A DNA stretch of 64,000 bases from the NCBI GenBank assembly GCA_026770025.1, contig JAMXDE010000015.1, positions 1,795,160-1,859,159 on the forward strand. Direction: 5' to 3'. This DNA is from Craspedostauros australis. Taxonomy: Eukaryota; Bacillariophyta; Bacillariophyceae; Mastogloiales; Achnanthaceae. Positions 37,756 through 64,000 of the stretch are shown here, piece by piece; the first letter of the stretch is position 1, and each line of letters opens with the position of its first letter. Position numbers and translations under genes: made by a program. The notes below the pieces were generated by a model. The model was given only the letters and a program-made list of their open reading frames with translations, was not told the origin of the DNA and made no database searches.

Positions 37756-39174
37756 ATGAGCCGCAACACGGATGCCATCGCCAACACCAATACCAACAGC
37801 GATCATGATCCAGACTTCAAGACTTTCTGGAAACAGCTTCATCAGAAATGGTGGGTTGCGAAGACCGTATTCACTCCACAGTGCCCACCAGCAGAGCAGA
37901 TCGAGTGCTACAATGTCACACCCAAGCGGATGGAATACTGGGACATGACCATCGAAGCGGGATTCGCCTTTGCTGACTTGAAATCGATGGTGAAGCGGCA
38001 CAAGAACGTTGCTTTATCACCTCATGTTCTACTAAGCGGTTCGTTTCGCAATGGATGCGGGCAGATGCGCATTGGATCCCTGAATCTGAAATTCGGCACC
38101 ATTGGCCAATTCAGAGAAGAAGACAAGCAAGCGATTCGCTTCGTACTTCGATTGGCTGCCGAACATCCACTCAAATCTTCATCCTTGCAATACATCCACT
38201 TGCCTCAATGCTTCGTGGAGATGAAGCAGCTCCATGATATCCCTCTTGTGACACACCGTGTGGAGTTGGATTCATGTGATCTTGTTGATTGCGACAAGCT
38301 CATGTTCAACATCTCCCAACACTCCAAATACGTTGAGTTTAGTTTCTGCAAGCTCGCCAATGGGGGCGCCGATTTGTGCAGATGGCTGTCTCCAAGCAAT
38401 TGCAGCGTCACCGAAGTATCCTTTGTATGCACCCGAGTCACTTGCGATGGCTTGGCAAAGCTATTCCAATCAAACAAGCGCATCAACAAGCTCGACATGA
38501 TGTTCTGTCGGGACTACGACGGACAATACATCGACCAGATGATCAAACTCCTTTCAGATGCATCACATCTGAAGAAGCTAAAGGTTTCCAATGTTTGGAT
38601 CGGGTCATCGCGACAAGAGCAGATGGCAAGGTTCGACACTTTGGTATCGCTTCTGGGAAACAAGGGCTTGTCATCTCTCACATACTGGGACTTCTTGAAT
38701 CCCGACATGTTTGAGGTTCCGCCTGAGATCTCGGCACAAATGGAAGCACTTCAGCAAGCCTTGGAGGAGACCACCCAACTCACTTATCTCGACATTTATC
38801 CACGCCTGCCTGACGAACATGCCCAATGGCACAATGCACTTGTTCAACGTATCTTCCGGCGAAATCATTGCAACACGGTGAGAGCGGTGCTGGGTTCCCT
38901 TCCGACATGGTCGCGGCCGCTTGCCCTGTTTGGGAAGATGCTGATGAGAACAAGCAAACGTCGGGGCACAATGAGTACAATGGATCCCATGAGCGAGACT
39001 TTCCATCTTCTGCTGCAGGGCAGTGACACGTTGAAACAGGCGTGGGATGACAAGAGAGCGGATCAGCTCGTCCAAGGTGACGGTGCTTCTGCCCGCTACG
39101 TGGAAAAGAAAGGCACATTGATGATTGATGCGATCCTGCATTGCCTTGGAGTACGCTGGTCGTCGAGTAATTAG
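37756..39174 (+). CDS. array LRR-like protein, copy 1 (full length)
   Basis: 472 residues from ATG 37756 (MSRNTDAIANTNTN). No signal peptide or transmembrane segment, so probably cytosolic or nuclear. It has a conserved N-terminal block (DHDPDFKTFWKQLH, VTPKRMEYWDM), a helical segment (EEDKQAIRFVLRLAAEH) and then about eight irregular repeats with strand-turn-helix periodicity (SCDLVDCDKLMFNIS, SKYVEFSFCKLANGGADLCR, CSVTEVSFVCTRVTCDGLAK, INKLDMMFC, SHLKKLKVSNVW, LSSLTYWDFLNPDM, TQLTYLDIYPRLP). These suggest an RNI-like leucine-rich repeat fold. The C-terminus (LHCLGVRWSSSN) is complete, as in copy 5. It converges on a monooxygenase pseudogene 167 bp away. Function is unknown; the RNI-like fold implies ligand or protein binding. 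Confidence 0.8.
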   Translation: MSRNTDAIANTNTNSDHDPDFKTFWKQLHQKWWVAKTVFTPQCPPAEQIECYNVTPKRMEYWDMTIEAGFAFADLKSMVKRHKNVALSPHVLLSGSFRNGCGQMRIGSLNLKFGTIGQFREEDKQAIRFVLRLAAEHPLKSSSLQYIHLPQCFVEMKQLHDIPLVTHRVELDSCDLVDCDKLMFNISQHSKYVEFSFCKLANGGADLCRWLSPSNCSVTEVSFVCTRVTCDGLAKLFQSNKRINKLDMMFCRDYDGQYIDQMIKLLSDASHLKKLKVSNVWIGSSRQEQMARFDTLVSLLGNKGLSSLTYWDFLNPDMFEVPPEISAQMEALQQALEETTQLTYLDIYPRLPDEHAQWHNALVQRIFRRNHCNTVRAVLGSLPTWSRPLALFGKMLMRTSKRRGTMSTMDPMSETFHLLLQGSDTLKQAWDDKRADQLVQGDGASARYVEKKGTLMIDAILHCLGVRWSSSN

Positions 39175-39340
39175 AACAGCGCATGACGACAGTATTGGTA
39201 CTCTGGTGCATGTGAGTGTGTTGTTGTACGAGTAGGATGGAACAAGGGAGATGGTTGGTTGAGTGACTGTGATTGCGTGCTGTGGTTGGTGAGAAGTAAG
39301 GGAATGTATATTAACAACAAGCGAAAGACGTTCACAGAAC

Positions 39341-40809
39341 CTATCTGCACCACATCACGATTTCACATCGCGATTTCACACCGCCCCACACATTCCTCAC
39401 ATCCTCGGCACTGCGGCATCTAGAAAGATCTTCTTCGTAACCCCTGTCTTGTCCATGGTGAAGACAAACCGCATCTACGTCTTTGCAAGTGCTTCCGTTA
39501 CGGTTGCAGTTGCAGTCGCGATTGCGGTTCCCGTTGCGGTTGCCGTTGGTGGCCACCATCGCCTTGGTCCATCGCGCAAAGGGATTGTGGAAGTAGATCC
39601 CGAACTCGAAGAATCGATCGGCATTGTCGATGAGTCGATTGATGATGGGCCTTGTGGTGTGCGTGGGGGTCTTGGCATCGTCGATCTGCTGTCGCATCTG
39701 TTGCTGGATGTGTTTGGCCTCGGATGATGCCTTCCAAGCGACGTTCTCATCATCCTTTCTGACGGCGGGCTTGGAGAAGGGCAAGGCGTTGCGAAAGATG
39801 ATGAAGCAGCATTGGGTGGTGCCGCGCTTGATACCGCTGAGGTAGTTGCCAGTGAGGCAGTAGGCGCTGTTGCCAAAGTGTTGCTGCAGGATGGAATCAT
39901 GTGCCATTTTGTTCATTCCGTTGTCGCTACTGCTGCCACTGTTGCTGTCCTCTTTGGCGACATCCTGGATGACGTACCGGATGCGGATGCCAGAGTTCAC
40001 AGCTGGCGAATTGCGTTGGTTGTCTGATGACGACCGCGCATCGCCGTTGATGTACTGCTTGACGACGCTGTTGACATCATCACAGCCCTCCACCATATCG
40101 TACGGCCCTTCCCTCATCCCGTCCTGTAATGTGAGATGGATGGCATCTCGCGCCTTCGGCTTTTTGACATTCCACATTCATCACCTTGCCAAGATGCACG
40201 GGCGTCGTCTTCAGCTCCTCCAGCAGCACCTCCTGCAAGGCTCCTCGCATGACGGAGCATGGTGCGCCATGACTTCACCGCCCTCCTGGATCAGCGCTTT
40301 CGTCGTGTCGCCGCCCGCATCCATAATCATCTGTCTGAGATTGAAGTGCAGCAGTTGGAACTCCTCGTTGGATGAGATCCAGTTCGTGGTCTTGGATCGC
40401 ACAGTCATCAACAGCAGCGCGGCATCGGCCATCGCACACTGCAGGGACGGATAGATCTGCTTGAGCACCGCCATGCCACTGTTAAGCTGCACGCCCGCAC
40501 CTGCGACGACGTCCAATTCTGGTCTTGCATCGAAGCATGTCACATCAATGTTGTGTGCATCGTTGCCGTTGTTGTTTTCGAAGGCATGCGCCAAGGAGAG
40601 ATCGGCGATGTCACCACCGATGATTGCGATCTTCCGTATTGGTTGGCGATTCTCATTCCCATTCCCATTCTCATTGCTTCTGCTGTTTCGCTTCTGCGTT
40701 GGAGTGAGGATGACGGGGACGACGGGGATGACAGTGAGGTCGTTGCCACCAACATGCACGCAATGTAGATGGCAGCAATCATCCTCTTTTGATGCATCAA
40801 CGATGCCAT
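39341..40809 (-). pseudogene. FAD monooxygenase, array copy 1 (broken)
   Basis: The intended product is a secreted or ER-routed flavoprotein. ATG 40809 opens a signal peptide (MASLMHQKRMIAAIYIACML), but the dinucleotide-binding block IAIIGGDIADLSLAHAF lies in another frame. It also has Asp in place of two of the glycines of GxGxxG. ARPELDVVAGAGVQLNSG and the mid-domain (LQDGMREG, NSVVKQYINGD) follow, with a frame change near 40200. The second FAD motif GDAAHAM is absent: the sequence jumps from GSTCKDVD to the C-terminal part (cf. TMDKMGVVKK in copy 3). Three independent lesions mean no active enzyme. The family is FAD_binding_3-type (salicylate hydroxylase/zeaxanthin epoxidase-like) aromatic or terpenoid hydroxylases. 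Confidence 0.8.
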
Positions 40810-41786
40810 TGCTGCCGTTGCTGTGATTCTTCTGGTTGTGGCTGTCTCTGTGGTTGGGCGATCAATGAGTGAGGAACCAAATCAACCAGCCGGCATCGTT
40901 CGAAGTCTCTCTCTCGAAGCAGAGAGAGAGAGAGAGAGAGAGTATCGTACTTTGTGGATAGACACTTGATGGCAACAGTGATCATCATGTGAGCGTTGCG
41001 GTTGTGACGATCCGCATCGGGATTCTGTAGCGATGTCGGCAGCACCATCCACCATGACCATCGTCATCGCCGCAGGGTTCGCAATGATTGAGTGAGACGA
41101 GACGAGTCCTGGATACGTTTGTTGTCGATTGAAACACGAGTGGTGTCACCATCGCCATCGTCATCGTCATCGTCATCATCCTCTTGGCGAAACGTGAGAA
41201 TCGCCTCCGATGTCCACCGAAGAAGTCGTCATGGTGGATTCCTCGCATCGTGGACTCGTCACATTGCGCATCTGCCCATTGTCGTCGTTCGATGACATCC
41301 AACTGCTGAAGAACTGTATCGATCGGAGTAGTATCGTGATTGACTCCCCCAAGACCATCACAGAGGGATGTACTCATATTCCAAAAACTATGGTATCACA
41401 TGAAGAAGCACAACTGCACAGCGTGGCCAAGTTGGGCACCATCGAAAGTCGTATCGTGTGAGCGAGCGAGCCAGCTTCGGATCATGATGTGGCTGTCCAC
41501 GGTCGTACCCTGCCATACCATACCACGTCACGCAACGCCATACACCGTGGTGGAACTGCGCAAGTCCATGCAGGCGTGTTGATTGATGGTAGATCCCTTC
41601 GTGATGAATGCACAGGATCATGAAATGGAAGACAGCAAACTCGAGCAGATGAGCTCACAATCGCCATCCAAGCGCAACTGATTTGGGACCACATACTCTT
41701 CCTGCTGCATCTACTCTTCTCGTTCGATTGTGCCACCAACAGCAACAATCGGCATCAGCCGTATCAACAGTGACGACAAGAAAACG
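40810..41786. other. array spacer A
   Basis: Divergent upstream region between enzyme copy 1 and LRR copy 2. It contains a CT/AG inverted repeat (40914-40942), CATCGT-rich microsatellite (41150-41190), and a mini-ORF beginning MVSHEEAQLHSVAKLG (41390-41461), which is conserved in the other spacers. The leader just before ATG 41787 is ACAAGAAAACG. Confidence 0.7.
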
Positions 41787-43181
41787 ATGAAGCGCAACAT
41801 GGATGATGTCGCCAACACCAATGCCAGCACCAACCATGATCCAGACTTCAAGACTTTCTGGAAACGACTCCATGGAAAAGAGCTGTCACCGAAGACCGTA
41901 TTCACCCGGCAGTGCTCACCAGCAGAGCAGATCGACTGCTACAGCGTCACACCCAAGCGAATGGAACACTGGGACATGGCCATCGAAGCAGGATACACTT
42001 ATGATGACTTGGAATCGACGGTGACGCGGCACAAGAACGTTGCCGCATCACCTCATGTTCTACTGAACGCTTTGTTGCACCAGGGCCGCGAGCAGATGTA
42101 CATTGGATCCGTGGCTCTGGAATTCGGCACCATTGACCAATTCGGAGAAGAAGACAAGCAAGTGATTCGCTTCGTAATTCGATTGGCTACCCAACAGTCA
42201 TTCAAATATTCATTCGGCGGAGACATCGACTTGACTCAATACTTCGTGGAGATGAAGCAGCTCCATGATATTCCTCTTGTGACACATTGTGTGGAGTTGG
42301 ATTCATGTGATCTTGTTGATTGCGACAAGCTCATGTTCAACATCTCCCATAACTCGAAATACGTTGAGTTTGAATGCTGTAAGCTCGCCAATGGGGGCGC
42401 TGATTTGTGCAGATGGTTGTCTCCAAACAACTGCGGCATCACCAAAGTATCCTTTTACAGCACCCGTATCACTTGTGATAGCTTGGCAAAGCTACTCCAG
42501 TCAAACAAGCGCATCAACAAGCTCAACATCAGTTTCTGTCGGGTCCACAACGACCAACAATTCTCCTCACAACAAGAAATCGATCAGATCATCCAACTCC
42601 TTTCAAATACATCGCACCTGAAGGAGCTTTGGGTTTTCGGTATTTGGGAAGGGTCATCGCGACAAGAGCAGATGATGATATTCGACCCTTTGATATCGCT
42701 TCTGGGGAACAAGAACTTGTCATCTCTCACATACGAGATCGGTGGGAAGCCCAGCATGTTCGAGATTCCGCCCAAGATCCTCTCGGCACAAATGGAAGCA
42801 CTTCAGCAAGCCTTGGAGCAGACTACCCAACTCACCTATCTCGACATTTCTCCAATCCTGCCTGACAAACATGTCCATTGGTACAATGCACTTGTTAAAC
42901 GTATCTTCCGGCGAAATCATCGCAACAAGGTGAGAGCAGTGCTGGGTTCCCTTCCGACATGGTCGCGACCACTGGCCCTGTTTGGGGAGATGCTGACGAG
43001 AACAAGAAAACGTCGGGGTAGAATGAATGCAAAGGGTAGAATGAATCGCAGGAGCGAGACTTTCCATCTTCTGTTGCAGGGCAGTGACACGTTGAAACAG
43101 GCGTGGGATGACAAGAGAGCGGATCAGCTCGTCCGAGTTGATGATGCTTCTGCTTGTTGTGTGGAAAAGAAAGGCACATAG
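41787..43181 (+). CDS. array LRR-like protein, copy 2 (lacks last 18 residues)
   Basis: 464 residues from ATG 41787 (MKRNMDDVANTNAS); the frame upstream is opened only by a GTG. It differs from copy 1 in defined patches, such as NALLHQGREQMYIGSVALEF, TQQSFKYSFGGDIDLTQYF and RVHNDQQFSSQQEID. Flanking blocks such as NKRINKL and FVEMKQLHDIPLVTH are unchanged. A TAG replaces a Leu codon after VEKKGT; the remaining conserved end (AILHCLGVRWSSSN) still follows in frame to about 43235. The lost segment is short and the protein could remain functional. Confidence 0.75.
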   Translation: MKRNMDDVANTNASTNHDPDFKTFWKRLHGKELSPKTVFTRQCSPAEQIDCYSVTPKRMEHWDMAIEAGYTYDDLESTVTRHKNVAASPHVLLNALLHQGREQMYIGSVALEFGTIDQFGEEDKQVIRFVIRLATQQSFKYSFGGDIDLTQYFVEMKQLHDIPLVTHCVELDSCDLVDCDKLMFNISHNSKYVEFECCKLANGGADLCRWLSPNNCGITKVSFYSTRITCDSLAKLLQSNKRINKLNISFCRVHNDQQFSSQQEIDQIIQLLSNTSHLKELWVFGIWEGSSRQEQMMIFDPLISLLGNKNLSSLTYEIGGKPSMFEIPPKILSAQMEALQQALEQTTQLTYLDISPILPDKHVHWYNALVKRIFRRNHRNKVRAVLGSLPTWSRPLALFGEMLTRTRKRRGRMNAKGRMNRRSETFHLLLQGSDTLKQAWDDKRADQLVRVDDASACCVEKKGT

Positions 43182-43420: not shown

Positions 43421-44945
43421 CTATCTGCATCACATCGCGATTTCACACTGCTCCATACATTCTCATATCCTCGGAACAGCAGTATCCAGAACGGTCTTCT
43501 TCGCAACGCCCGTCTTGTCCATGGTGAAGACAAACCGCATCTACGTCTTTGCAAGTGCTTCCATTACGGTTGCAGTTGCAGCTGCAGTTGCAGTCGCCGT
43601 TGCGGTTGCCGGTGGTGCCCATCATCACCTTGGTCCATCGCGCAAAGGGATTGTGGAGGTAGATCCCCAACTCGAAGAAACGATTGGCCTTGTCCATGAG
43701 TCGATCGATGATGGGCCTGATGGTGTGCATGAAGATCTTGGCATCATCGATCTGCTGTCACATCTGTTGCTGGATGTGCTCGCCCTCGGGTCATGCCTTC
43801 CAAGAGACATTCTTGTCATCCTTTCTGGCGGTGGGCTTGGAGAAGGGGAAGTGTTGCGGAAGATGATGAAGCAGCCTCCGGTGGTGCCGCGCTTGGTACC
43901 GTTGCCGTAGTTGACGTTGTCATAGTTGCCGTTGTCGCAGTTGCTGGTGAGGCAGTAGGCGCCGTTGCCAAAGTGTTGCTGCGGGACGGGATCATGTGTA
44001 GTTGTGTTCATTCCGTTGTCGCTGCCACTGTTGCTGTCGCTGTCCTCTTTGGCGACATCCTGGATGGCGTACCGGATGCGGATGCCAGAGTACACAGCTG
44101 GCGAATTGCGTTGATTGTCTGATGGCGACCGCGTATCGCCGTTGATGTACTGCTTGACGACGCTGTTGGCACCATCACAGCCCACCACTATATCGTACCA
44201 GTACGGCCCTTCCCTCGTTCCATCTTCAAGCGCAAGATGGATGGCATCTCGCTTCTCCATCTTTTCATATTCCACATTCATCACTTGCTTTGCCAAGATG
44301 CACGGGCGTCACCTCCACCTCCTCAAGCAGCGCCTCCTGCAACGCTCCTCGCATGACGGAGGACGGTACGCCATGACCGCGCCTTCCTCCTGGATCAGCG
44401 CTTTCGTCGTGTCGCCGCCCGCATCCATGATCATCTGTCTGATATTGAAGTGCAGCAGTTGGAACTCCTCGTTGAATGAGATCCAGTTGGTGGTCTTGGA
44501 TCGCACGGTCATCAATGGCAGCGCGGCATCGGCCACCGCATGCTGCAGGGACGGATAGATCTGCTTCAGCACTGCCATGCCGCTGTTGAGCTGCACACCC
44601 GCACCTGCGACGACGTCCAATTCTGGTCTCGCATCGAAGCATGTCACATTGAAGCATGTCACATCAATGTTGTGTGCATCGTTGCCGTTGTTGTTCTGGA
44701 AGGCATGTGACAAAGAGTGACCGGCGATGCCACCACCGATGACTGCGACCTTCCGTATTGGTTGGTGATTCCCATTTCCGTTGCTTCTGCTGCTTCGCTT
44801 CTGCTGCTTCGCTTCTGCGTTGGAGTGAGGATGACGGGGATGATGATGACAGTGAGGTCGTTGCCACCACCATGCACACGATGCAGATGGCACCAATCAT
44901 CCTCTTTTGATGCATCAACCACGTTGTTGCTGCCAATGCTGCCAT
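43421..44945 (-). pseudogene. FAD monooxygenase, array copy 2 (broken)
   Basis: This copy keeps the best first FAD motif (VAVIGGGIAGHSLSHAF) and the signal peptide (MAALAATTWLMHQKRMIGAI), but these lie in different frames. Frames also change around 44300: QEALLEEVEVTPVHLGKA reads in one frame and MNVEYEKMEKRDAIHLALED in the next. DIVVGCDGANSVVKQYINGD, the mid-domain DG motif, is intact. As in copy 1, the segment with GDAAHAM is deleted at the same breakpoint, so the deletion predates the duplication of these two units. A 15-bp local duplication adds CFNVTCFDARPE. Confidence 0.8.
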
Positions 44946-46005
44946 TGCTGTGATTCTTCTGGTTGCGGCTGTCTCTGTGGTTGGGCGATCAATGAGTGAG
45001 GAACCAAGTCAACCAGCCGGCATCGTTCGAAGTCTCTCTCCAGAAACAGAGAGAGAGAGAGAGAGTATTGGCATGCTCTGTGAATAGATACTTGATGGCA
45101 ACGGTGATCATCAGCGAGTGTTGCGGTTGTGACGATCTGTCTCAGTCTTCTGCAGCGATGTCTGCAGAAGCACCACCGTGGCCATCGTCATCGTCATCGT
45201 CATCGTCATCGCCACAGAATGAATCCTCTCGCACACGCTCTGTGTTGATCGGAAGACCGATGGTTGATTCATTCGCCACAGAGAGTTCGCAATGATTGGG
45301 TGAAGCGAGACGAGTCCTGGATACGTTTGTTGTCGATTGAAACACGAGTGGTGTCATCCTCATCGTCATCACCCTCTCGACGAAACACGAGAAACCCCTC
45401 TGATTTCCACGGAAGAAATCATCGTGGAGGATTCTTCGCATCGTGGATTCCTCACATCGTGGATCCGCTCACCGCAGTCTTTCGATGACATCCAACTGCC
45501 GAAGAACCGTATCGATCGGAGTATGTGTAGCATCGTGGTTGACTCGCCCAAGACCATCACAGAGGGATGTGCCTACTCATATTACACAAACAATGGTATC
45601 ACATGAAGAGGCACAACTGCACAGCGTGGACAAGTTGGGCACCATCGAAGGTCGTATCGTGCAAGCGAGCGAGCTAGCCTGCTTCGGATCATGATGTGGC
45701 TGTCCACAGTCGTATCATACCACACCATACGCAGTGGTGGAACTGCGCAAGTCCATGCAGGCGTGTTGGCTGACGACACGTTGCTTCGTGATGAATGCAC
45801 AGGATCATGGAATGGAGGACAGCAATCTTGAGCAGATGAGCTCACAATCGCCATCCAAGCGCAACTGATTTGGGACCACATACCTACTCTACATACTCTG
45901 CCTGCTCTGTCAGCTCTACTCATACGATTGTGCCACAATCAACAATAATCAGCACCAATCGGCATCAGCCGTAACAACTGCGACGACAGTGACAACAAGA
46001 AACGG
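44946..46005. other. array spacer B
   Basis: Homologous to spacer A. CT/AG inverted repeat at 45031-45065, CATCGT microsatellite 45183-45213, and the conserved 33-codon mini-ORF MVSHEEAQLHSVDKLG... at 45593-45694. The leader before ATG 46006 is CAAGAAACGG. Confidence 0.7.
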
Positions 46006-47343
46006 ATGAACTGCACCATGGATGATGTCGCCAACACCAACCATGACCCTCACTTCGAGGCATTCTGGAAACAGCTTTATGGACAACAATTGCCACAGAC
46101 GACCATCGTCGTTACGGATGGCAACTACGACATGCAAGTCAACTGCTGCGACATCACACCCAAACGGATGGAACACTGGGACATGGCCATCGAAGCAGGA
46201 TTCACCTTCGCTGACTTGAAATCGATGGTGGAGCGGCACAAGATCGTTATTTTATCACCTGATGTTCTACTGAGCGATTCGTGGCTCCAGAGCTGCGGGC
46301 GGATGCGCATTGGATCCCTGAAACTGGAATTCGGCACCATTGACCAATTCGGAGAAGACAAGCAAGCGATTCGATTCGTACTTCGATTGGTTGCCGAACA
46401 TCCACTCAAAGTTCCATTCGACAGAGGAATCCAATTGAATAAGTCCTTCGTGGAGATGAAGCAGCTCCACGATATTCCTCTTGTGCCACATTGTGTGTGT
46501 TTGGATTCATGTGATCTTGTTGATTGCGACAAGCTCATGCTCAACATCTCCCAAAACTCTAAACACGTTGTATTCAGTGACTGCAAGCTCGCCGATGGGG
46601 GCACTGATTTGTGCAGGTGGCTGTCTCCAAACAATTGCAGAGTCACCACAGCAACATTTTTATCCACCCGTATCACTTGCGATAGCTTGGCAAAGCTATT
46701 CCAGTCAAACAAGCGCATCAACAAGCTCGGCATCAATTTCTGTGGGGACTACAGCGCCCAACAAATGTGCTCACGACAAGAAATCGACCAGATCATCAAT
46801 TTCCTTTCAAATGCATCACACCTGAAGAAGCTCACGATTTCTGGTATTTGGAACGGGTTATCGCGACAAGAACAAGAGACATGGTTCGACACTTTGATAT
46901 CACTCCTGGGAAACAAGAGCTTGTCATCTCTCACATACTTGGAGTTCTGGAATCCCGACATGTCTGAGGTTCCCCCAGAGACCCTCTCGGCACAAATGGA
47001 AGCACTTCAGCATGCCTTGGGGGAGACTACCCAACTCACCTACCTCGACATTCGACCACGCCCGCCTGACGAACATGCCCATTCATACAATGCGCTTGTT
47101 GAACATAGCTTGCGGCGAAATCATCGCAACAAGGTGAGAGCAGTGCTGTGTTCCCTTCCAACATGGTCGCGGCCGCTGGCCCTGTTTGGGAAGATGCTGA
47201 TGACAAGAATCCGACGTTGGGGTCCAATGGGTTCCACGAACGAGACTTTCCATCTTCTGTTGCAGGGCAGTGAGATGTTGAAACAGGCGCGGGATGACAA
47301 GAGAGCGGATTGGTTCGTCCGAGTTGATGATGCTTCTGCTTGA
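46006..47343 (+). CDS. array LRR-like protein, copy 3 (truncated C-terminus)
   Basis: 445 residues from ATG 46006 (MNCTMDDVANTNHDP). Residues about 15-45 are the most divergent of all copies (GQQLPQTTIVVTDGNYDMQV), and the acidic EED is reduced to ED. Variable patches include SDSWLQSCGRMRIGSLKLEF and GDYSAQQMCSRQEID. TGA at 47341 ends the frame after VRVDDASA; a second in-frame stop (TAG after KKGT) follows before the conserved end near 47421, so about 26 residues are lost. The remaining repeats are intact and ORF retention over 1.3 kb is notable. Confidence 0.72.
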   Translation: MNCTMDDVANTNHDPHFEAFWKQLYGQQLPQTTIVVTDGNYDMQVNCCDITPKRMEHWDMAIEAGFTFADLKSMVERHKIVILSPDVLLSDSWLQSCGRMRIGSLKLEFGTIDQFGEDKQAIRFVLRLVAEHPLKVPFDRGIQLNKSFVEMKQLHDIPLVPHCVCLDSCDLVDCDKLMLNISQNSKHVVFSDCKLADGGTDLCRWLSPNNCRVTTATFLSTRITCDSLAKLFQSNKRINKLGINFCGDYSAQQMCSRQEIDQIINFLSNASHLKKLTISGIWNGLSRQEQETWFDTLISLLGNKSLSSLTYLEFWNPDMSEVPPETLSAQMEALQHALGETTQLTYLDIRPRPPDEHAHSYNALVEHSLRRNHRNKVRAVLCSLPTWSRPLALFGKMLMTRIRRWGPMGSTNETFHLLLQGSEMLKQARDDKRADWFVRVDDASA

Positions 47344-47587: not shown

Positions 47588-48527
47588 CTATCTGCACCAC
47601 ATCATGATTTCACGCCGCTCCATACATTCTCGTACCCTCGGAATGGCAGCATCCAGAAAGATCTTCTTCACAACGCCCATCTTGTCCATGGTGAAGAACA
47701 ACACATCCCGGAACTTGGCCAATGGCCCCAACGAGGCCTCCAGGTACTCCAGCAGACCAGCCTTGAGCGTGATGCCCATGATGCCTGTGGTGGTGGACCA
47801 TCGCTTGTCTTTGTAATCTGTCTGCAGGATCTCTTCGAGGCTGTTCCAACCATTGGCTGGTCCATCGTACTGCATATTGTATTGACGAATGGCGTTGACC
47901 AGGTAGTAGGCGTCTTGGATGGTCTCATTGGCGCCCTGTCCCAGGAACGGTGACATGGCGTGCGCCGCATCACCGCAGACAGTAAGGATGGCGACCTTGT
48001 CTGCGCTGGTGCTTCCATTGCAGCCACGGTTGCGATTTCCGGTGGTGGCCATCATCGCCTTCGTACATCGCGCAAAGGGATTGTGGAAGTAGATCCCCAA
48101 CTCGAAGAATCGATCGGCATTGTCGATGAGTCGATCGATGATGGGCCTTGTGATGTGCGTGCGGATCTTGGCACCATCGATCTGCTGTCACATCTGTTGC
48201 TGGATGCGCTCGGCCTCGGATGATGCCTCCCAAGCGACGTTGTTGTCGTTGGTGTCGGTATTGCTGTTGTTCTCGAAACCATGCGCCAAGAAGAGACCGG
48301 CGATGCCACCGTCGATCACGGCAATCTTCCATATTGGTTGGTGGTTCCCACTCCCACTCCCATTGCTGCTTCTGCTACTGCTTCGCTTCTGCGTTGGAGT
48401 GAGGATGACGGGGATGGTGAAGCAGTGAGTCCGTTGCCACCAACATGCACGCAATGTAGATGGCACCAATCATCCTCTATTGATGCATCAACCACGTCGT
48501 TGGTGTCATTGCTGCCAATGCTGCCGT
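47588..48527 (-). pseudogene. FAD monooxygenase, array copy 3 (internal deletion)
   Basis: The start codon equivalent is ACG and a TAG interrupts the signal peptide (HQ*RM). The first FAD motif is IAVIDGGIAGLFLAHGF (first Gly changed). An internal deletion then joins AHGFENN to VAWEASSEAERIQQQM, removing the whole substrate-binding middle. In contrast, the C-terminal half is the best preserved of all copies: GIYFHNPFARCTKAMM, ILTVCGDAAHAMSPFLGQGA, EYLEASLGPLAKF and the end MERREIMMWCR. This copy identifies the family by the GDAAHAM-PFLGQGA second FAD motif. Confidence 0.82.
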
Positions 48528-49459
48528 TGCTGTGATTCTTCTGGTTGTGGCTGTCTCTGTGGTTGGGCGATCAATGAGTGAGGAACCAAGTCAACCAGCC
48601 GGCATCGTTCGAAGTCTCTCCCCAGAAACAGAGAGAGAGCGTTGGTAGGTATCGTACTCTGTGGATAGACACTTGATGGCAACGGTGATCATCATGTGAC
48701 CGTTGTGGTTGTGACGATCTGTGTCAGTATTCTGCAGCGATGTCTGCAACAGGAGCACCACCATGGCCATCGTCATCGCCACAGAGTTCGCAATGATTGA
48801 GTGAGGCGAGATGAGTCCTGGATACGTTTGTTGTCGATTGAAACACGAATGGTGTCATCCTCATCATCGCCATCGTCACCCTCTCAACGAAACACGAGAA
48901 ACGCCTCTGATGTCCGCCAAAGAAGTCGTGGTGGATTCGTCACATCGTGGATCTACCCATTGCGGTCGTTCGATAACATCCAACTGCCGAAGCACATACT
49001 ACTATTAGTATGCATTCGTATGGCACAATGGTTGACTCCCCCAAGACCATCACGGAGGGATGTGCTATACTCATGTTGCACGACCTATGGTATCACATGA
49101 AGAGGCGAAACTGTACAGCGTGGCCAAGTTGGGCAGGATCGAAGATCGTATCGTGCGAGCGAGCTAGCTAGCTTCGGGTTGTGATGTGGCTGTCCACGGT
49201 CGTATCACACCACACCACACCATACCAGACACAGTGGTGGAACTGCGCAAGTCCATGCAGGCATGTTGACTGACGACACTTGGCTTCGTGATGAATGCAC
49301 AGGATCATGAAATGGAGGACAGCAAACTTGAGCAAATGAGCTCACAATCGCCATCCAAGCGCAACTGATTTGGGACAACATACTCTGTCTGCTCTGCTGT
49401 TGTGCAACCAACACTATCGACAGCCCCCACCATAAACAGCATCGACAACATACAGCAGG
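48528..49459. other. array spacer C
   Basis: Homologous to the other spacers but shorter; the mini-ORF copy (49087-49167, MVSHEEAKLYSVAKLGRIED) ends after 26 codons. The CT/AG inverted repeat is reduced (48616-48640). The leader before ATG 49460 reads ACATACAGCAGG. Confidence 0.7.
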
Positions 49460-50949
49460 ATGAGCTGCAACACGGATGCCATCGCCAACACCAATACCAA
49501 CACCAACCATGATCCGGACTTCAAGACTTTCTGGAAGCAACTCCATCAAAAAGAGCTGCCACCGAAGACCGTGTTCACTCCACAGTGCACACCAGCAGAG
49601 CAGACCGACTGCTACAGTGTCACACCCAAGCGGATGGAATACTGGGACATGGCCGTCGAAGCAGGATACACTTATGATGACTTGGAATCGATGCGGCGGC
49701 ACAAGCACATTGCTTTATCACCTCATGTTCTACTGACTTGTTTGTCTCACCAGTGCTGCGGGCGGATGCGCATTCTATACCCGTTTCTGGAATTCGGCAC
49801 CATTGACCAATTCAGAGAAGAAGACAAGCAAGCGATTCGCTTCGTAATTCGATTGGCTGCTCACCATCCACCCGAATCTCCATTCGACCAACGCATCCGC
49901 TTGCATCGATGCTTCGTGGAGATGAAGCAGCTCCACGATATCCCTCTTGTGACACATCGTGTGGATTTGTGCTCATGTGATCTTGTTGATTGTGACAAGC
50001 TCATGTTCAACATCTCCCAAAACTCCAAACACGTTGAGTTTAGTTTCTGTAAGCTCGCCAATGGGGGTGCCGATTTGTGCAGATGGCTGTCTCCAAACAA
50101 TTGCAGCATCACCGAAGTATCCTTCTCAAAAACCACTATCACTTGCGATGGCATGGCCAAGCTATTCCAGTCAAACAAGCGCATCAACAAGCTCAACATC
50201 GATTTCGGTCTGGTCCGCATCCCCCGACGAATCTACTCACAACAAGAAATCGACCAGATCATCAAACTCCTTTCCGATGCATCACACCTGAAGAAGCTAA
50301 AGGTTTTCAATCTTTGGAACGGGTCATCGCGACAAGAGCAGATTAGGATGTTCGACACTCCGATATTGCTTCTGGGAAACAAGAGCTTGTCATATCTCAG
50401 ATACCGGGACTTCCTGAATCCCTGCGTGTTTGAGGTTCCGCCCGAGACACTCTCGGCACAAATGGAAGCACTTCAGCAAGCCTTGGAGCAGACTACCCAA
50501 CTCACCTATCTCGACATTCGACCAGGCCCGCCCGGCAAACATGCCCGTGTGTACGATGCACTTGTTCCACGTATCTTCCGGTGAAATTATCGCAACAAGA
50601 TGAGATCAATGTTGCGTTCCCTTCCGACATGGTCGCGGCCACAGGCCCTGTTTGGGGAGATGCTGATGAGAACAAACAAACGTTGGGGTCCAATGGGTTC
50701 CACGAACGAGACTTTTCACATTCTGCTACAGTGCAGTGACATGTTGAAACAGACATGGGACGATCGTCATGCCGATGAGCAACGACAGAAGAAATAGCGC
50801 CGCAGCGATAAGGTCATGGGCCTTCAATGAAATCGGCAGCCAACTGGCCACACTCGTGAAAGCGACGGAGCTTCTGATTGGTGTTTACAAAGCAAAGAAA
50901 GGTGTGTCGATGATTGATGCGATGCTGTATCACCTTAAACAACTGTAAG
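49460..50949 (+). pseudogene. array LRR-like gene, copy 4 (nonsense, disrupted end)
   Basis: ATG 49460 (MSCNTDAIANTNTNTN) opens 374 codons up to a TGA that replaces the Arg codon after RIFR (50582). The same frame continues with conserved sequence (SLPTWSRPQALFGEMLMRTN, NETFHILLQCSDMLKQTWDD) to 50797. There the end is scrambled, and the terminal motif (AKKGVSMIDAMLYHL) reappears in another frame at about 50890-50949 after a 90-bp insertion. Variable patches: TCLSHQCCGRMRILYPFLEF, GLVRIPRRIYSQQEID. A truncated 374-residue protein covering most repeats is still possible. Confidence 0.7.
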
Positions 50950-52846: not shown

Positions 52847-53287
52847 CGATTTGTGTTGTCTTCTGTTGTCTTGTGTTGTATTGGGTTGGGTTGGGTTGGG
52901 TTGTTTTGGGAATGATCCGCTCTGTTGCTTCGTTCAATCCTCCAATCGTTCGTTCAATCGTTCAATCGTTCAATCGCACAATGATCGATGCTCAATATTG
53001 AATGGATGGCCTGTTGCGACTAACGTGATTGCTGATGGCGCAGTATCCAGTATCCAATGTCCAATGTCCAACGTCCAGTGGTGGATCTACTCTCTCTCTC
53101 TCTCTCTCTCTTTCCCTCTCTCCAGTGATTCTTGAGGCAACGGGCTGATGCGATGCGATACAACACTGTGGTTGATGTTGATGATGGTGTCGCCGTTGCG
53201 ATTGTTGCGCCTGTCAGAGGAAATGGCCATCGGTGGTTCTCAATCCACAACGGAAGAAAAGTGTCGGGGATGGTGATGACAGTGAGT
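52847..53287. repeat. microsatellite-rich upstream region
   Basis: 5' region of the tail-anchored gene. It holds (TTGGG)4 at 52881-52900, repeated CGTTCAAT at 52931-52976, repeated ATCCA/ATGTCCA at 53044-53080, and a (CT)n tract at 53090-53120. The dense cluster of different simple repeats sits exactly between the inserted gene and the resumed array sequence. Confidence 0.75.
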
Positions 53288-53375
53288 TCGTTGCCACCAC
53301 CATGCACGCAATGCAGATGGCACCAATCATCATCTTTTGATGCATCAACCACGTTGTTGCTGCCAATGCTGCCGT
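53288..53375 (-). pseudogene. FAD monooxygenase remnant (signal peptide only)
   Basis: Matches the signal-peptide region of the other enzyme copies (WLMHQKMMIGAICIACMVVA), with ACG at the start position as in copy 3. Homology ends near 53288, and the FAD domain is absent; the following minus-strand sequence is unrelated. This marks where the array unit was cut by the 51.2-53.3 kb segment. Confidence 0.7.
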
Positions 53376-54386
53376 TGCTGTGATTCTTCTGGTTGTGGCT
53401 GTCTCTGTGGTTGGGCGATCAATCAGTGAGGAACCAAGTCAACCAGCTGGCATCGTTCGAAGTCTCTCCCCAGAAACAGAGAGAGAGAGAGAGAGCGAGA
53501 GTATTGGCATGCTCTGTGAATATATACTTGATGGCAACGGTGATCATTATGTGACCGTTGTGGTTGTGACGATCTGTATCAGTATTCTGCAGCGATGTCT
53601 GTAGCAGCAGCACCACCATGGCCATCGTCATCGCCACAGAGTTCGCAATGATTGAGTGAGGCGAGATGAGTCCTGGATACGTTTGTTGTGAATTGAAACA
53701 TGAGTGGTGTCACCATCGTCGTCATCGTCATCGCCACAAAACACGAGAAAACGCCTCTGACGTCCACCGAAGAAGTCATCGTGGATTCTTCACATCGTGG
53801 ATCAGCCCATCGGAGTCGTTCGATAACATCCAACTCCCGAAGAACTGTATCGATTGGAGTATAATACAATAGTATCGTGGTTGACTCCCCCAAGACCATC
53901 ACAGAGGGATGTGTCTATTCATTTTACACAAACAATGGTATCACATGAAGAGGCGCAACTGCACAGCGTGGACAAGTTGGGCACCATCGAAGGTCGTATC
54001 GTGCGAGCGAGCGAGCTAGTCAGCTTCGGATCATGATGTAGCTGTCCACGGTCGTATCATACCATACCATACCATGCCATACCATCGCATAGCATGTCAT
54101 ACACCGTGAGGAACTGCGCAAGTCCACGCAGGCGTGTTGACTGACGACACGTTGCTTCGTGATCAATGTACAGGATCATGGAATGGAGGACAGCAATCTT
54201 GAGCAGATGAACTCACAATCGCCATCCAAGCGCAACTGATTTGGGACCACATACTCTGCCTGCTCTATCAGCTCTACTCGTACGATTGTACCACCAACAG
54301 CAACGACCACCAACAGCAACAATCATCATCAGTAGCAATCAGCAACGATCAGCAACGACAACAACGACAGAAACGACAAGAAGAGG
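53376..54386. other. array spacer D
   Basis: Homologous to spacers A-C. CT/AG inverted repeat 53462-53500, conserved mini-ORF 53935-54036 (33 codons, same protein start as in spacer B), and an expanded (CCATA)n run at 54055-54100. CAACAGCAA/CGACAACAA repeats form the leader before ATG 54387. Confidence 0.7.
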
Positions 54387-55850
54387 ATGAACCGCAACAT
54401 GGATGCTGTCGCCAACACCAATACCAACATCAACCATGATCCAGACTTCAAGACTTTCTGGAAACAACTCCATCGAAACAAGCTACCACCGAAGACCGTG
54501 TTCAATGTGCAGAGTCATCCAAGACAGCAGATTGACTGCTACAGTGTCACACCCAAGCGGACGGAATACTGGGACATGGCCATCGAAGCAGGATTCACCT
54601 TTTCTGACTTGAAATCGATGAAGCGGCGGCACAAGCACATTGCTTTATCACCTCATGTTCTACTGAGCAATTGGTGGTACTGGGGCTGCAGGCGGATGCG
54701 CATTCGATCCCTGTATCTGAACTTCGGCAGGGATGGCCAATTGGGAGAAGAAGACAAGCAAGCGATTCGCTTCGTGCTTCGATTGGCTGCCGAACACCCA
54801 CTCAAATCTTCATTCGACGAATGCATCGAATTGGACAAGTCCTTCGTGGAGATGAAGCAGCTCCACGAGATCCCTCTTGTGTCACATTGTGTGCATTTGT
54901 GCTCATGTGATCTTGTTGATTGCGACAAGCTCATGTTCAACATCTCCCAAAACTCCAAATATGTTATGTTTAGTAACTGTAAGCTCGCCAATGGGGGCGC
55001 TGATTTGTGCAGATGGCTGTCTCCAAACAATTGCAGTATCACTGAAGTATCCTTCGTATGCACCCGCGTCACTTGTGATACCTTGGCAAAGCTATTCCAG
55101 TCAAACAAGCGCATCAACAAGCTCCAAATCAGTATTTGTCGGGACAACAGCACCCAACACATCCACTCACAAGAAATCGACCGGATCATCCACCTCCTTT
55201 CAGATGCATCACACCTGAAGGAGCTTGGTGTTTCTGGTGTTTGTATTGGGTCATCGGAGCCAGAGCAGATGACATGGTTCGACGCATTGATATCGCTCCT
55301 GGGAAACAAGAGCTTGTCTTCTCTCCAATACAGTCGCTTTTGGAATCCTGGCATGTCTGAAGCTCCACCCGAGACCCTCTCGGCACAGATGGAAGCACTT
55401 CAGCAAGCCTTGGAGCAGACTACCCAACTCACCTATCTCTACATTTCTCCACGCCCGTCTGGCAAACATGCCCATTCATACAATGCGCTTGTTGAACATA
55501 GCTTGCGGCGAAATCATCGCAACAAGGTGAGAGCAGTGCTGTGTTCCCTTCCGACATGGTCGCGGCCACTGGCCCTGTTTGGAGAGATGTTGATGAGAAC
55601 AAGCAAATGTGGGGATACAATGGATGCAATGGTTACAATGGCTCTAATGGGCGCAATGGATCCCATGAGCGAGACTTTCAACGTTCTGTTACAGGGCAGT
55701 GAGACGTTGAAACAGGCATGGGATGACAAGAGAGCGGATCGGCTCGTCCGAGTTGATGATGCTTCTGCTTGTTGTGTGAAAACGAAAGGCACATCGATGA
55801 TTGGCGCGATCCTGCATTGCCTTGGAGTACTCTGGTCGTCGAGTAATTAG
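54387..55850 (+). CDS. array LRR-like protein, copy 5 (full length)
   Basis: 487 residues from ATG 54387 (MNRNMDAVANTNTN); with copy 1 it is one of two complete members and ends in LHCLGVLWSSSN. It is longer than copy 1 because of a Met/Asp/Ala insert (TMDAMVTMALMGAMDPM) in the loop before SETFNVLLQ. That loop also varies in length in other copies. Variable patches: SNWWYWGCRRMRIRSLYLNF, GRDGQLG and RDNSTQHIHSQEID. Invariant blocks: SCDLVDCDKLMFNIS, ANGGADLCRWLSPNNC, LFQSNKRINKL, SLPTWSRPLALFGEM. No signal peptide or membrane span. It converges on enzyme copy 4, whose stop lies 186 bp away. Confidence 0.82.
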   Translation: MNRNMDAVANTNTNINHDPDFKTFWKQLHRNKLPPKTVFNVQSHPRQQIDCYSVTPKRTEYWDMAIEAGFTFSDLKSMKRRHKHIALSPHVLLSNWWYWGCRRMRIRSLYLNFGRDGQLGEEDKQAIRFVLRLAAEHPLKSSFDECIELDKSFVEMKQLHEIPLVSHCVHLCSCDLVDCDKLMFNISQNSKYVMFSNCKLANGGADLCRWLSPNNCSITEVSFVCTRVTCDTLAKLFQSNKRINKLQISICRDNSTQHIHSQEIDRIIHLLSDASHLKELGVSGVCIGSSEPEQMTWFDALISLLGNKSLSSLQYSRFWNPGMSEAPPETLSAQMEALQQALEQTTQLTYLYISPRPSGKHAHSYNALVEHSLRRNHRNKVRAVLCSLPTWSRPLALFGEMLMRTSKCGDTMDAMVTMALMGAMDPMSETFNVLLQGSETLKQAWDDKRADRLVRVDDASACCVKTKGTSMIGAILHCLGVLWSSSN

Positions 55851-56035: not shown

Positions 56036-57705
56036 CTATCTGCATCACATCGCGATTTCACACCGCTCCATACATTCTCATATCCTCGGAACAGCAGTAT
56101 CCAGAACGGTCTTCTTCGCAACGCCCGTCTTGTCCATGATGAAGAAGGACACATCCCGGAACGTGACCAACGGTCCTCACGAGGCCTCCAGGTACCCCAG
56201 CAGACCAACCTTGGCCATGATGCCCGTGATGTCCATGATGTCCATGATGCCTGTGGTGGTAGGCCATCGCTTGCCCTTGTATTCTGTCTTCAGGATGTCT
56301 TCGAGTCTGTCCCCACCATTGGCTTGTTCATCGTGCTGCATGGTAGGCTGCTGAATGGCGTTGGCCAGACAGTAGGCGTCTTGGATGGCCCGATTGGTGC
56401 CCTGTCCAAGGAACAGAGGCATGGCGTGTGCCGCATCACCACAGACAGTCAGGATGGCGGCCCTATCCGCATCTACGCCTTTGCAAGTGCTTCCATTGCA
56501 GTTGCCGTTGCAGCTGCAGTTGCAGTCGCCGTTGCGGTTGCCAGTGGTGCCCATCATCACCTTGGTCCATCGCGCAAAGGGATTGTGGAAGTAGATCCCC
56601 AACTCGAAGAAACGATCGGCATTGTCGATGAGTCGATCGGTGATAGGCCTTGTGGTGTGCGTGGGGATCTTGGCATCATCGATCTGCTGTCACATCTGTT
56701 GCTGGATGCGCTCGCCCTCGGATCATGCCTTCCAAGGGACGCTCTCGTCATCCTTGCTGGCGGTGGGCTGGGAGAAGGGGAAGGTGCTGCGGAAGATGAT
56801 GAAGCGGCCTCTGGTAGTGTCACGCTTGATGCCGCTGTTGTAGTTGCCGTTGTCATAGTTGCCATTGTCGCAGTTGCTGGTGAGGCAGTAGGCGCCGTTG
56901 CCAAAGTGTTGCTGCAGGATGGAATCTTGTTCCATTGTGTTCATTCGGTCGCCGCTGCTGCTGCTACTACTACTACTGCTAATCCCGCTGTTATGCTCGC
57001 TGTCCTCTTTGGCGACATCCTGGATGGCGTACCGGATGCGGATGCCAGAGTGCACAGTCGCCGAACCTGCGTTGTTGCCTGCTGAAGACAGCACATTTCC
57101 ATCACCATTGTCATCACCATCACCGCTACCGTTGCCACCACCAGCGCCGTTGATGTACTACTTGACGGCACTATCGACACCATTCCAGCCCTCGACCATA
57201 TCGTACCAGTACGGGCCCTTCCCTCGTTCCATCTTCAAAACGCGAGATGGATGGAATCTCGCTCCTCCGTCTTTTGACATGCCACATCCACCACCTGCTT
57301 GCTGAGATGCACGGGCGCCACCTCCAGCTCCTCCAATGGCGTTTCCTGCAGCTCCTCCTGCAGCGCCTCCTGTAAGGCTCCCCGCAGGATGGAGGTTGGT
57401 ACGCCATGACTTCGCCATCATCCTGGATCAGCGCCTTCGTCGTGGCGTCACTCCGCATCCATGATCATCTGTCTGAGATTGAAGTGCAGCAGCTGGAGCT
57501 TCCCCTTGGATGAGATCCAGCTGGTGGTCTTGGATCGCACAGTCGTCAACAGCAGCGCGACATCGGCCACCGCGCGCTCTTTGCTGCACGCTACAGTGAC
57601 GGATAGATCTGCTTCAGCACTGCCATGCCGCCGTTAAGCTGAGCGCCCGCACCTGCGATGACGTCCAATTCTGATCTGGCATCGAAGCATTTCACATCAA
57701 TGATG
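56036..57705 (-). pseudogene. FAD monooxygenase, array copy 4 (N-term missing)
   Basis: The conserved sequence begins only at IDVKCFDARSELDVIAGAGA near 57705, so signal peptide and GxGxxG are absent. A stop follows LKQIYPSL, frames shift near 57580, 57450 and 57160, and a stop interrupts VK*YINGAGG. The second FAD motif is present but altered: ILTVCGDAAHAMPLFLGQGT. A DIMDITGIM expansion lies near 56230, and the end is frameshifted. It joins directly to an HI0933-like flavoprotein pseudogene on the same strand. Confidence 0.75.
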
Positions 57706-57707
57706 TG

Positions 57708-58694
57708 CACACAATGATGTGTGCAATGTTGTCTGCAGTGCTATTGTCATTGTCGTCATCAATGTCGCCGTCTCTCTCGTACTAATGTGGTCCAACGACA
57801 AAGGCCAACGATTCGTTTTGCTTGAATGGTCTCGGTCGTTTCTGTCCTGCGATCTGACCTTCAACGTCAGCCGCACAAATGGCATGGTGCATTCATTGGA
57901 TTACAACGAGTCGATGATATCCAATATGGCAGTCATCTCATTCTCTGCATTCAGCACCAACGGACAGCCACAAGCGATGGGTTCCACGATGCTGTGTCCC
58001 AGACTGCAAGCCAACTGCAAGCCGTTGTGAGAGCTGCTGGTGGCAAGCACCACTGCATTTGCTCGGATCGAATCGTGCGGATCGTCTCCAGCGTGAAGGA
58101 TGAAATCGCCATCATCGAGTGGATCCATTGCGGTCACTATCCAATTTGTGAGTACCTGGAATGTAGTGGATGTGTCACTATCCTCCACATCCTCGGTGCT
58201 GCCATCGGTATTGTCGGCACTGGTGTTCAGTCTTTCGGTCAACGCGTCACCCAGAGGTTGCGTCGATGCGCCAAAGGAGGAATCTGGATCAGCCCCGCAT
58301 GTTGTCATGACAAGGACGATGGTCACGCCATCTTGCGTTGGTGTCTCCAACACCACATCAGGCACATGTCCCGCCAACCATTGCTGCTGCTGTCGTGGCT
58401 TCCATGTCTTCGCCAACAACCCCACAAGCTCCTGTCGACCACGTCGGAATCCTTCCTTGACTACTTCCGAAACCTTCCTCAGAGGGGTCTCAAGACATCA
58501 TGCCTTAATCTTGGTTGGATCTCAGATTGCGAAGGATCGCTTCAGTTGACTCCAACAAAGCGATCCGTGTGCCTGTGGAGGTTGATGTGTTGCGCAAACG
58601 CTGCAATGGCAGCAAGCGTCCTGGTTGTGCCACCACCGATGATCGCGGGATCCACATGTTGCTGGGAGAGGGGTGTTGGTTGCGCCATTGTCAT
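57708..58694 (-). pseudogene. HI0933-like (aminoacetone oxidase-type) flavoprotein, decayed
   Basis: Minus-strand pieces follow the order of the HI0933-like flavoprotein family: PAIIGGGTTRTLAAIAAFAQ (FAD site, from ATG 58694), TPLRKVSEVVKEGFRRGRQE (the family GGGRCN block is missing), LVGLLAKTWKPRQQQQWLAG, VVLETPTQDG, ANAVVLATSSSHNGLQLACS with LGHSIVEPI, and MPFVRLTLKVRSQ near 57880. They lie in at least three frames with stops between. Family members oxidise aminoketones or have unknown substrates. The gene is dead here; its left edge abuts the truncated monooxygenase copy 4 at about 57705. Confidence 0.65.

Positions 58695-60680: not shown

Positions 60681-60713
<33 letters not shown>
60681..60713. 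repeat. GAT trinucleotide microsatellite
   Basis: Eleven consecutive GAT units. A CAGCAA-type run lies 300 bp further on (60992-61028). Confidence 0.95.
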
Positions 60714-63359: not shown

Positions 63360-63871
63360 TCACTCGAAGCGCCGAATAACTGTATCGATCGGAGTAGTAT
63401 CGCGGTTGACTCCCCCAAGACCATCACAGAGAGATGTACTATACTCATGTTGCACGAATCTATGGTATCACATGAAGAGGCACAACTGCACAGCGTGGAC
63501 AAGTTGGGGCACCATCGAAGGTCGTATCGTGCGAGCGAGGCGAGCGAGCTAGCCAGCTTCGGATCATGATGTGGCTGTCCACGGTCGTATCACACCACAC
63601 CATACCATACCATACCATACACCATGGTGGAACTGCGCAAGTCCATGCAGGCATGTTGACTGGACGACACGTTGCTTCGTGATGAATGCACAGGATCATG
63701 AAATGGAGGACAGCAAACTTGATCAGATGACCTCACAATCGCCATCCAAGCGCAACTGATTTGGGACCACATACTCTACCAGCACTACTCGTACGAGTGT
63801 ACCGCCAATATCAACAATCACCAGCAGCACGGACAACAGCGACGACAGCAACGACAGCGAACAAGAAAAGG
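63360..63871. other. array spacer E (left-truncated)
   Basis: Homology to the other spacers starts near 63364 (CTGTATCGATCGGAGTAGTA). The mini-ORF (63462-63569) has a one-base insertion (TTGGGGCACC) that changes its second half. A (CCATA)n run lies at 63600-63623, TACTCGTA at 63786, and CAACAGCGACGACAGCAACG forms the leader of copy 6. Confidence 0.7.
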
Positions 63872-64000
63872 ATGAACCGCAACATGGATGATGTCGCCAA
63901 CACCAATACCAACAGCGATCATGATCCAGACTTCAAGACTTTCTGGAAACAGCTCCATGGCAAAGAGCTGTCACCGACGACAGTGTTCACGTCACATTCC
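63872..64000 (+). CDS. array LRR-like protein, copy 6 (5' end only)
   Basis: ATG 63872 opens MNRNMDDVANTNTNSDHDPD and FKTFWKQLHGKELSPTTVFT before the window ends. It matches the N-terminal block of the other copies and shows that the array continues to the right. Integrity of the rest cannot be judged. Confidence 0.8.
   Translation, partial: MNRNMDDVANTNTNSDHDPDFKTFWKQLHGKELSPTTVFTSHS

Follow-up and report, generated by a model that had tools for sequence, protein, structure and literature searches.

We analysed a 64,000-base stretch of the genome of the diatom Craspedostauros australis (hereafter, the window), which is the terminal part of contig C13 (C13:1795160-1859159; the contig comprises 1859159 bases). 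The window carries an array in which five genes for leucine-rich repeat (LRR) proteins and a sixth one cut by the contig end, all on the plus strand, alternate with five broken relics of a flavin adenine dinucleotide (FAD) monooxygenase gene on the minus strand, as an earlier note on this DNA had described. The features of the array are given below, where reference positions in the LRR genes are those of LRR copy 5 and reference positions in the enzyme are those of an open copy found on contig C18.

37753..39174, plus strand: LRR copy 1, open and lesion-free
39400..40878 (ends approximate), minus strand: monooxygenase relic 1, with 4 frameshifts and 3 deletions (15-37 codons) in the C-terminal half
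41337..41687 (approximate), plus strand: conserved upstream block preceding LRR copy 2 and covering alignment columns of about -450 to -100
41787..43181, plus strand: LRR copy 2, open to reference position 471, with a short C-tail
43466..45005 (ends approximate), minus strand: monooxygenase relic 2, with 4 frameshifts and 2 stops; homology to reference position 494
46003..47343, plus strand: LRR copy 3, open to reference position 463, with a short C-tail and stops at 463 and 471
47633..48587 (ends approximate), minus strand: monooxygenase relic 3, with 2 frameshifts and 2 stops; 205 and 63 codons deleted
49457..50584, plus strand: LRR copy 4, truncated by a stop at reference position 376; homology goes on to 452 (about 50776)
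53265..53435 (ends approximate), minus strand: monooxygenase relic 4, an N-terminal stub covering reference positions 1-60 only
54384..55850, plus strand: LRR copy 5, full length and lesion-free; the reference for alignments and the structure model
56081..57740 (ends approximate), minus strand: monooxygenase relic 5, with 5 frameshifts and 4 stops; N-terminus missing, beginning at reference position 98
63869..64000, plus strand: LRR copy 6, of which the window has the first 44 codons; interrupted by the C13 end and going on in contig C35

Extent of the arrays

The first five LRR copies start 3.5-4.9 kb apart, and a further 9.5 kb separates the fifth start from the sixth. The stops in copies 2 and 3 lie in the final 26 reference residues; in the genome as a whole, a recurrent stop at reference position 446 or 471 gives many LRR copies a shorter C-tail. 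Window 34784-63999, at the end of C13, matches C35:645943-675000, at the end of C35, in inverted orientation, with 98.96% identity over the main 25.2 kb and differences that are mostly small gaps. The two contigs probably join here, with the array continuing into C35, where the overlap identifies the sixth LRR copy as C35:644551-, free of lesions over reference positions 1-461. The alignment of these 25.2 kb holds 169 gap openings and the C35 end appears unpolished, and the C13 version was preferred in the overlap. Gene copies at the C35 end look disrupted when they are not, and genome searches can count a gene in the overlap twice.

The earlier note had proposed to search the rest of the genome for further arrays, and such arrays were found. 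With LRR copy 5 as the query against 74.8 Mb in 90 contigs, at least 88 matches were found on 17 contigs (88 of 122 candidates were scored, and at least two of the matches duplicate a gene that both C13 and C35 contain). The matched stretch was free of stops in 64 of the 88, and most LRR arrays lie away from contig ends on the contigs whose extent was checked. The stretches fetched for detailed analysis contained 52 LRR matches, 41 of which were full or nearly so. Ten were left out as partial by a range rule, including two from a 7-frameshift copy at the bad C35 end (C35:666529/667055), and C35:670602 was skipped for its 20 frameshifts in the same unpolished end. Removal of three contig-overlap duplicates from the 41 left the 38 distinct copies analysed below. 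In codon alignments, C35 versions stand in for three window LRR copies, to which they are identical there, and for two window enzyme relics (>98.5% identical); in lesion counts, they were swapped for the C13 versions.

Three LRR units on contig C9 (C9:1674129, 1678617 and 1683105) repeat with an exact period of 4488 bases and identical scores, and carry the same enzyme piece, open over reference positions 228-572. Either a tandem expansion of very recent date or an artefactual repeat in the assembly would account for this. Another LRR copy (C39:567835-570110) is split by an insertion of 177 codons and 2 further bases. In the window, the place between LRR copies 4 and 5 where the C-terminal part of relic 4 would be expected is occupied by a 461-residue acidic, low-complexity frame (51548-52933, minus strand), for which no Pfam match was found.

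Conservation of the LRR frame and decay of the enzyme

The LRR and enzyme genes differ sharply in decay, as the earlier note had noticed in the window. Six lesions were counted in 16,337 LRR codons (38 copies, reference positions 1-440; 0.37 per 1000); they fall in five copies, and two in the C40 copy cancel out. The enzyme carries 112 lesions in 9,939 codons (11.3 per 1000), a density 30 times that of the LRR gene, and 1 of 30 copies is lesion-free. The latter count rests on a frameshift-aware alignment of 30 distinct copies, each 150 codons or longer, to the C18 reference over positions 76-550, with shared lesions counted per copy; shorter enzyme matches and C35:669113 (17 frameshifts) were excluded from it and from the enzyme dN/dS (ratio of nonsynonymous to synonymous divergence). 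As dS is equal in both partners (0.232 for LRR and 0.244 for the enzyme), age does not explain the contrast. Up to reference position 440, 36 of the 38 LRR copies are stop-free, against a mean of 1.3 (maximum 3 in 20 runs) in a neutral simulation that allowed only substitutions, at half of the mean four-fold divergence. These figures support the suggestion of the earlier note that selection, not chance, maintains the LRR gene; in our reading, the enzyme is mostly a passenger. The more specific statement that five of five LRR frames in the window stay open holds for the LRR domain (to about reference position 364), but drops to four of five for the core to 440 because of the stop in copy 4.

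All five relics in the window are broken, as had been claimed for every enzyme copy; genome-wide, however, the claim does not stand. An open full-length frame of 573 codons lies among the arrays of contig C18 (C18:752800-754518) and answers the proposal to look for an intact monooxygenase. Used as the query, this copy was the sole stop-free match over the whole length among 108 matches listed (76 of 242 candidates were scored). It matches PF01494 (FAD_binding_3; E 1.5e-12), and its matches in the PDB include salicylate hydroxylase and kynurenine 3-monooxygenase. Class A flavoprotein monooxygenases combine FAD_binding_3 with N-terminal GGGIAG and GDAAHA motifs. Both motifs can be read in the C18 copy, and on this sequence evidence we assign the copy and the relics to the class A FAD monooxygenases. 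The enzyme also has a hydrophobic stretch near its N-terminus.

The lesions of the window relics were said to be different, which is true in part: a +2 shift at reference position 207 is common to relics 1, 2 and 5, and a stop at 397 to relics 2, 3 and 5. Across the 30 enzyme copies, the stop at 397 recurs in 19, the +2 shift at 207 in 12, a +1 shift at 189 in 9 and a stop at 386 in 9, and a deletion from about 105 to 378 is also shared. Such recurrence suggests that much of the array spread followed the death of the enzyme, or that conversion spread the lesions. The enzyme dN/dS was 0.53 among all copies and 0.55 without the C18 copy, values implying that part of the divergence dates from a constrained period; that of the C18 copy against the others was 0.38. 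A maximum-likelihood (ML) omega of 0.69 was obtained for 16 copies under the model used for the LRR gene below. Introns were ruled out as the source of the apparent lesions, as the C18 copy is a single open frame over the same sites, and assembly error is clear as a source only at the C35 end, where the gap openings noted above occur.

The LRR genes share a conserved region upstream as well. In bins of 50 bases from -101 to -450, the mean pairwise identity of 37 copies is 84-90%, except for 73% at -251..-300, and it drops to 46-67% beyond -750. The identity of the LRR gene itself is 83%, so that the block is about equally or more conserved, which is consistent with a kept promoter. No clear codon periodicity indicative of a coding exon was seen in the block. 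It also precedes copies 3, 4 and 5, while copy 1 has a different upstream type. A short reading frame of varying length lies about 100-250 bases before the LRR starts in most of the 37 copies (e.g., window 41600-41690) and typically ends ...MEDSKLEQMSSQSPSKRN or ...QMSS; it may serve translational control.

Variation on the outward LRR face

An AlphaFold2 model was built from the five window LRR copies. Its nine strands considered here (residues 110-114, 148-151, 169-173, 193-197, 221-225, 246-250, 280-284, 313-317 and 351-354) are mostly separated by helices and sit on V/L-x-L motifs; a further short strand predicted at 86-88 was not used. As modelled, the protein fits an RI-like LRR solenoid made of repeated V/L-x-L strand plus helix units. 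Predicted per-residue confidence (pLDDT, means of 10 residues) is 79-88 in residues 171-250, 51-89 in 251-380 and mostly below 50 in 1-120 and after 380. Foldseek matches in the PDB include NLRP1, NLRC4, FBXL17 and TIR1 (E 3e-4 to 1.5e-3), with a chain of the mouse cytoplasmic lattice at the top (3.2e-5).

Three window copies were scanned for sequence domains, and none had a Pfam domain above the cut-off; the Pfam LRR model appeared in one of them at E 0.081, below the cut-off. The same scans gave no NB-ARC, NACHT or ROC-COR match up to E 1 and no TIR, coiled-coil, kinase or F-box match, although a diverged F-box may lie in residues 1-109, which are poorly modelled (pLDDT <50). A weak Pfam match of copy 5 to SipB (17.5 bits against a cut-off of 31) was set aside. 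A PDB sequence search with the LRR alignment returned nothing below E 0.28, and no Rfam family reached its gathering threshold. One scan each of viral_contigs and genome_contigs, collections not meant for diatoms, found no relatives with two short peptide patterns from the N-terminus; a prokaryotic or viral source of the family is unsupported by this weak test. By simple hydropathy, copy 5 has no strong signal or membrane segment (the best 15-residue mean, 1.66, lies near the C-terminus), and the LRR protein is probably cytosolic.

We defined outward sites as the x positions of V/L-x-L-x-x, giving 27 sites in nine repeats or 21 sites in seven repeats. Nonsynonymous differences (pN) reach 0.441 at the 27 outward sites, compared with 0.063 at buried strand sites and 0.143 in the rest of reference positions 1-400. 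For the 21 sites, pN is 0.472 against 0.132 in the rest of positions 160-364, a value reached by 0 of 100,000 random site sets and 0 of 20,000 sets in shifted register. Four-fold divergence is 0.165 at outward, 0.125 at buried and 0.129 at flanking codons and 0.133 elsewhere. Amino-acid change at the outward codons is thus about three times as high as this neutral measure, and conserved codons lie in between, a pattern that argues against a local hot spot of mutation. The outward pN exceeded the synonymous differences (pS) of the other sites in 701 of 703 pairs, and sites with pN above twice the mean pS number 57 of 400 in the LRR gene but 9 of 573 in the enzyme. The ML omega was 2.90 for the 27 outward codons and 1.09 in each of two other partitions; fixing omega at 1 at the outward codons worsened the fit by 27.9 log units (best of six kappas tried). 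The earlier note had regarded a dN/dS near 1 as speaking against a maintained LRR gene. The whole-gene pairwise value of 0.81 (703 pairs, counting) is misleading in this respect, because the average mixes a conserved framework with a diversifying surface.

The same contrast between outward and buried pN is present in each of three subsets: the five window copies (0.458 and 0.051), seven copies taken from arrays elsewhere on C13 (0.370 and 0.058), and eight copies that lie on other contigs (0.385 and 0.073). No two of the 38 copies share a 27-residue surface signature; the signatures differ pairwise at 1 to 24 positions (median 19), in keeping with the idea in the earlier note of a recognition family. 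Up to 13 residue types occur at an outward site among the 38 copies, and the spectrum of changes there is flatter than in the rest, with more A-C and A-T. Recombination among the copies, which the earlier note had raised as gene conversion, was also detected: the incompatibility of neighbouring sites was 0.318 compared with 0.343 in shuffles, and 0 of 300 shuffles were as low. Taken at the level of codons, these results point to diversifying selection, with recombination, on the probable ligand face of the protein.

Several points weigh against this reading. The outward positions were named from the motif after the map of variability had been seen, albeit the later strand prediction agrees with them. 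The counting pS of the outward codons is itself raised (0.33), and with this same-codon yardstick the excess is weaker: the outward pN/pS is 1.35 for the full set of copies, 1.2-2.1 in individual subsets and 1.56 when the 21 sites are taken, and among the 14 closest pairs it is about 1.0-1.1. The raised pS probably reflects in part the counting method at multiply changed codons, which the four-fold test avoids. That test in turn is confined to pairs whose first two codon bases agree, and so favours recent common ancestry. Recombination breaks the single-tree assumption of the ML analysis, making its omega an effect size rather than a strict test. Some outward sites hardly vary (position 114 is constant, and three residues occur at 356), and variability is also seen outside the strands, at positions 41-50, 95-104 and 250-260. 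The structure model is weak overall (mean pLDDT 54), Foldseek gives low TM-scores (0.14-0.38 when normalised by query length), and no signalling domain was found in the three scanned copies. Finally, the analysis comprises only 38 distinct copies, and the LRR and enzyme copies counted for lesions are not strictly the same units.

Interpretation and relation to other LRR systems

With these points taken into account, we consider it likely that this photosynthetic diatom has a birth-and-death family of LRR proteins, each encoded in a single frame and probably cytosolic, with a diversified face and a passenger enzyme, and that the family serves as a germline recognition repertoire. The unit of LRR gene, facing monooxygenase and conserved upstream block would have been amplified in tandem and dispersed among many contigs. 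Selection would hold the LRR scaffold and frame and drive the outward beta-strand residues apart, giving each copy a different surface, and recombination among copies would reshuffle these differences. The monooxygenase would be mostly a hitch-hiker, often dead before the unit was copied. We infer that the LRR face binds something variable, such as molecules of parasites, viruses, bacteria or mating partners.

If exposed residues were merely under relaxed selection, the outward sites would be neutral. The same-codon pN/pS of 1.35-1.56 over all copies, and of about 1.0-1.1 in the 14 closest pairs, leaves some room for this, but drift should stay at or below the neutral rate, whereas the outward pN is 0.44 against a four-fold divergence of 0.13-0.165. 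The 701 of 703 pairs, the omega of 2.9 and the scarcity of such sites in the enzyme (9 of 573) also speak against neutrality, which we regard as very unlikely. A mutator targeted to strand codons, through hypermutation or template-directed diversification, could produce up to 13 residues per site and the flatter spectrum rich in A-C and A-T changes. We rate it the least probable of all, as four-fold divergence within and next to the strands (0.165, 0.125 and 0.129) is close to that in the rest of the gene (0.133) and the excess alternates with buried residues codon by codon, as under selection. Gene conversion alone might keep the frames open with no selection on the LRR product, and both the detected recombination and the recent tandem copies on C9 with identical scores speak for it. 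Conversion should, however, affect both partners, yet the lesion density of the enzyme is 30 times higher; it also homogenises, while surface changes exceed the neutral rate, and this possibility appears highly improbable.

It is likewise unlikely that the LRR protein and the monooxygenase form a real functional pair in which a few intact copies supply the enzyme in trans. The open full-length FAD_binding_3 frame among the C18 arrays, and its dN/dS of 0.38 against the others (lower than the 0.55 among the others), would suit such a pair; against it, 1 in 30 enzyme copies is lesion-free, no sign of a functional pair was found apart from the hydrophobic stretch near the N-terminus of the enzyme, and the two genes showed no coupling beyond gene order. 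Somewhat less unlikely is that the family diversifies for sexual or self/non-self recognition instead of defence, with a specificity per copy or haplotype. In Pseudo-nitzschia multistriata, two transmembrane LRR genes are mating-type-biased and have been put forward as candidate pheromone receptors or adhesion molecules, according to the excerpted text of PMC6261938, and an excerpt of PMC5485032 lists two LRR receptor-like genes with Ka:Ks >1 among sex-regulated genes. Copy 5, by contrast, has no strong signal- or membrane-like stretch, and dozens of copies would exceed the needs of a system with two mating types.

The window also contains genes other than those of the array. A 697-residue protein (28627-30720, minus strand) has weak LRR matches and, by eye, a membrane-spanning stretch, and differs from the array family. 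A frame of 1788 residues (21221-26587, plus strand) with an NPHP3_N/AAA_16-like P-loop and weak TPR matches is perhaps a STAND-type ATPase. Two DUF6824 proteins with glutamine-rich stretches are encoded at 1664-3607 (minus strand) and 12236-14671 (plus strand). In the whole genome, we found 88 matches to the silicon transporter family (exon pieces included), 28 of them nearly full length and stop-free, indicating a large family. This recalls the silicon transporter expansion described in the excerpted account of Nitzschia putrida (PMC9054022), yet the present genome has 61 light-harvesting protein matches, and by both gene sets it can be identified as that of a photosynthetic diatom.

Hypervariable LRR-strand residues on a fixed scaffold are a hallmark of the variable lymphocyte receptors of lampreys, which are assembled somatically and secreted or anchored; here, in contrast, the diversity lies among germline copies and the protein looks cytosolic. 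Plant genes of the nucleotide-binding-site LRR class (NBS-LRR or NLR) form tandem clusters with intergenic exchange. The family studied here is like them in its tandem arrays and diversified LRR face, and unlike them in that no NB-ARC, TIR or coiled-coil match was found in the scanned copies. For the brown-algal ROCO LRR genes, Zambounis and co-workers, in 2012, are reportedly the reference cited. The excerpted text of PMC11378527 describes diversifying selection on the LRR beta-sheet of plant NLRs and positively selected LRR sites on the concave face of brown-algal ROCO proteins. The latter are the closest precedent seen, being likewise a stramenopile LRR family with selected LRR sites, but in that account their LRR motifs are shuffled exons joined to ROC-COR, whereas each copy here is one open frame with no ROC-COR match in the three scanned.

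Among diatoms, LRR proteins are named first among the tandem duplicates of Seminavis robusta (PMC7335047), an account whose excerpt describes no selection on surface residues and to which our family can be likened by description only; secreted LRR proteins are mentioned in the excerpt on N. putrida (PMC9054022). Species-specific, fast-diverging LRR families occur in another single-celled eukaryote, Tetrahymena, although its LRR genes consist of 90-bp exons in the excerpted report (PMC6564038), unlike the single frames seen here. Our literature searches, in sources seen as partial texts, brought up no report of hypervariable LRR surfaces in diatoms.

Returning to the birth-and-death family with a diversified face, we tentatively raise a bolder possibility, which we hold to be somewhat less probable than not: a free-living diatom may possess an NLR-scale germline repertoire (>80 copies) of stand-alone intracellular LRR receptors, immune-receptor-like and with faces driven by an arms race, that have no recognisable NB-ARC, ROC or kinase domain. 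The family provides concrete candidate receptors by which single-celled algae might recognise viruses, bacteria, parasites or mates, and names the residues concerned, with a different LRR face in every analysed copy on a conserved scaffold and frame. It also illustrates that a whole-gene dN/dS near 1 can mask strong diversifying selection, and that an enzyme gene can travel dead alongside a selected neighbour.

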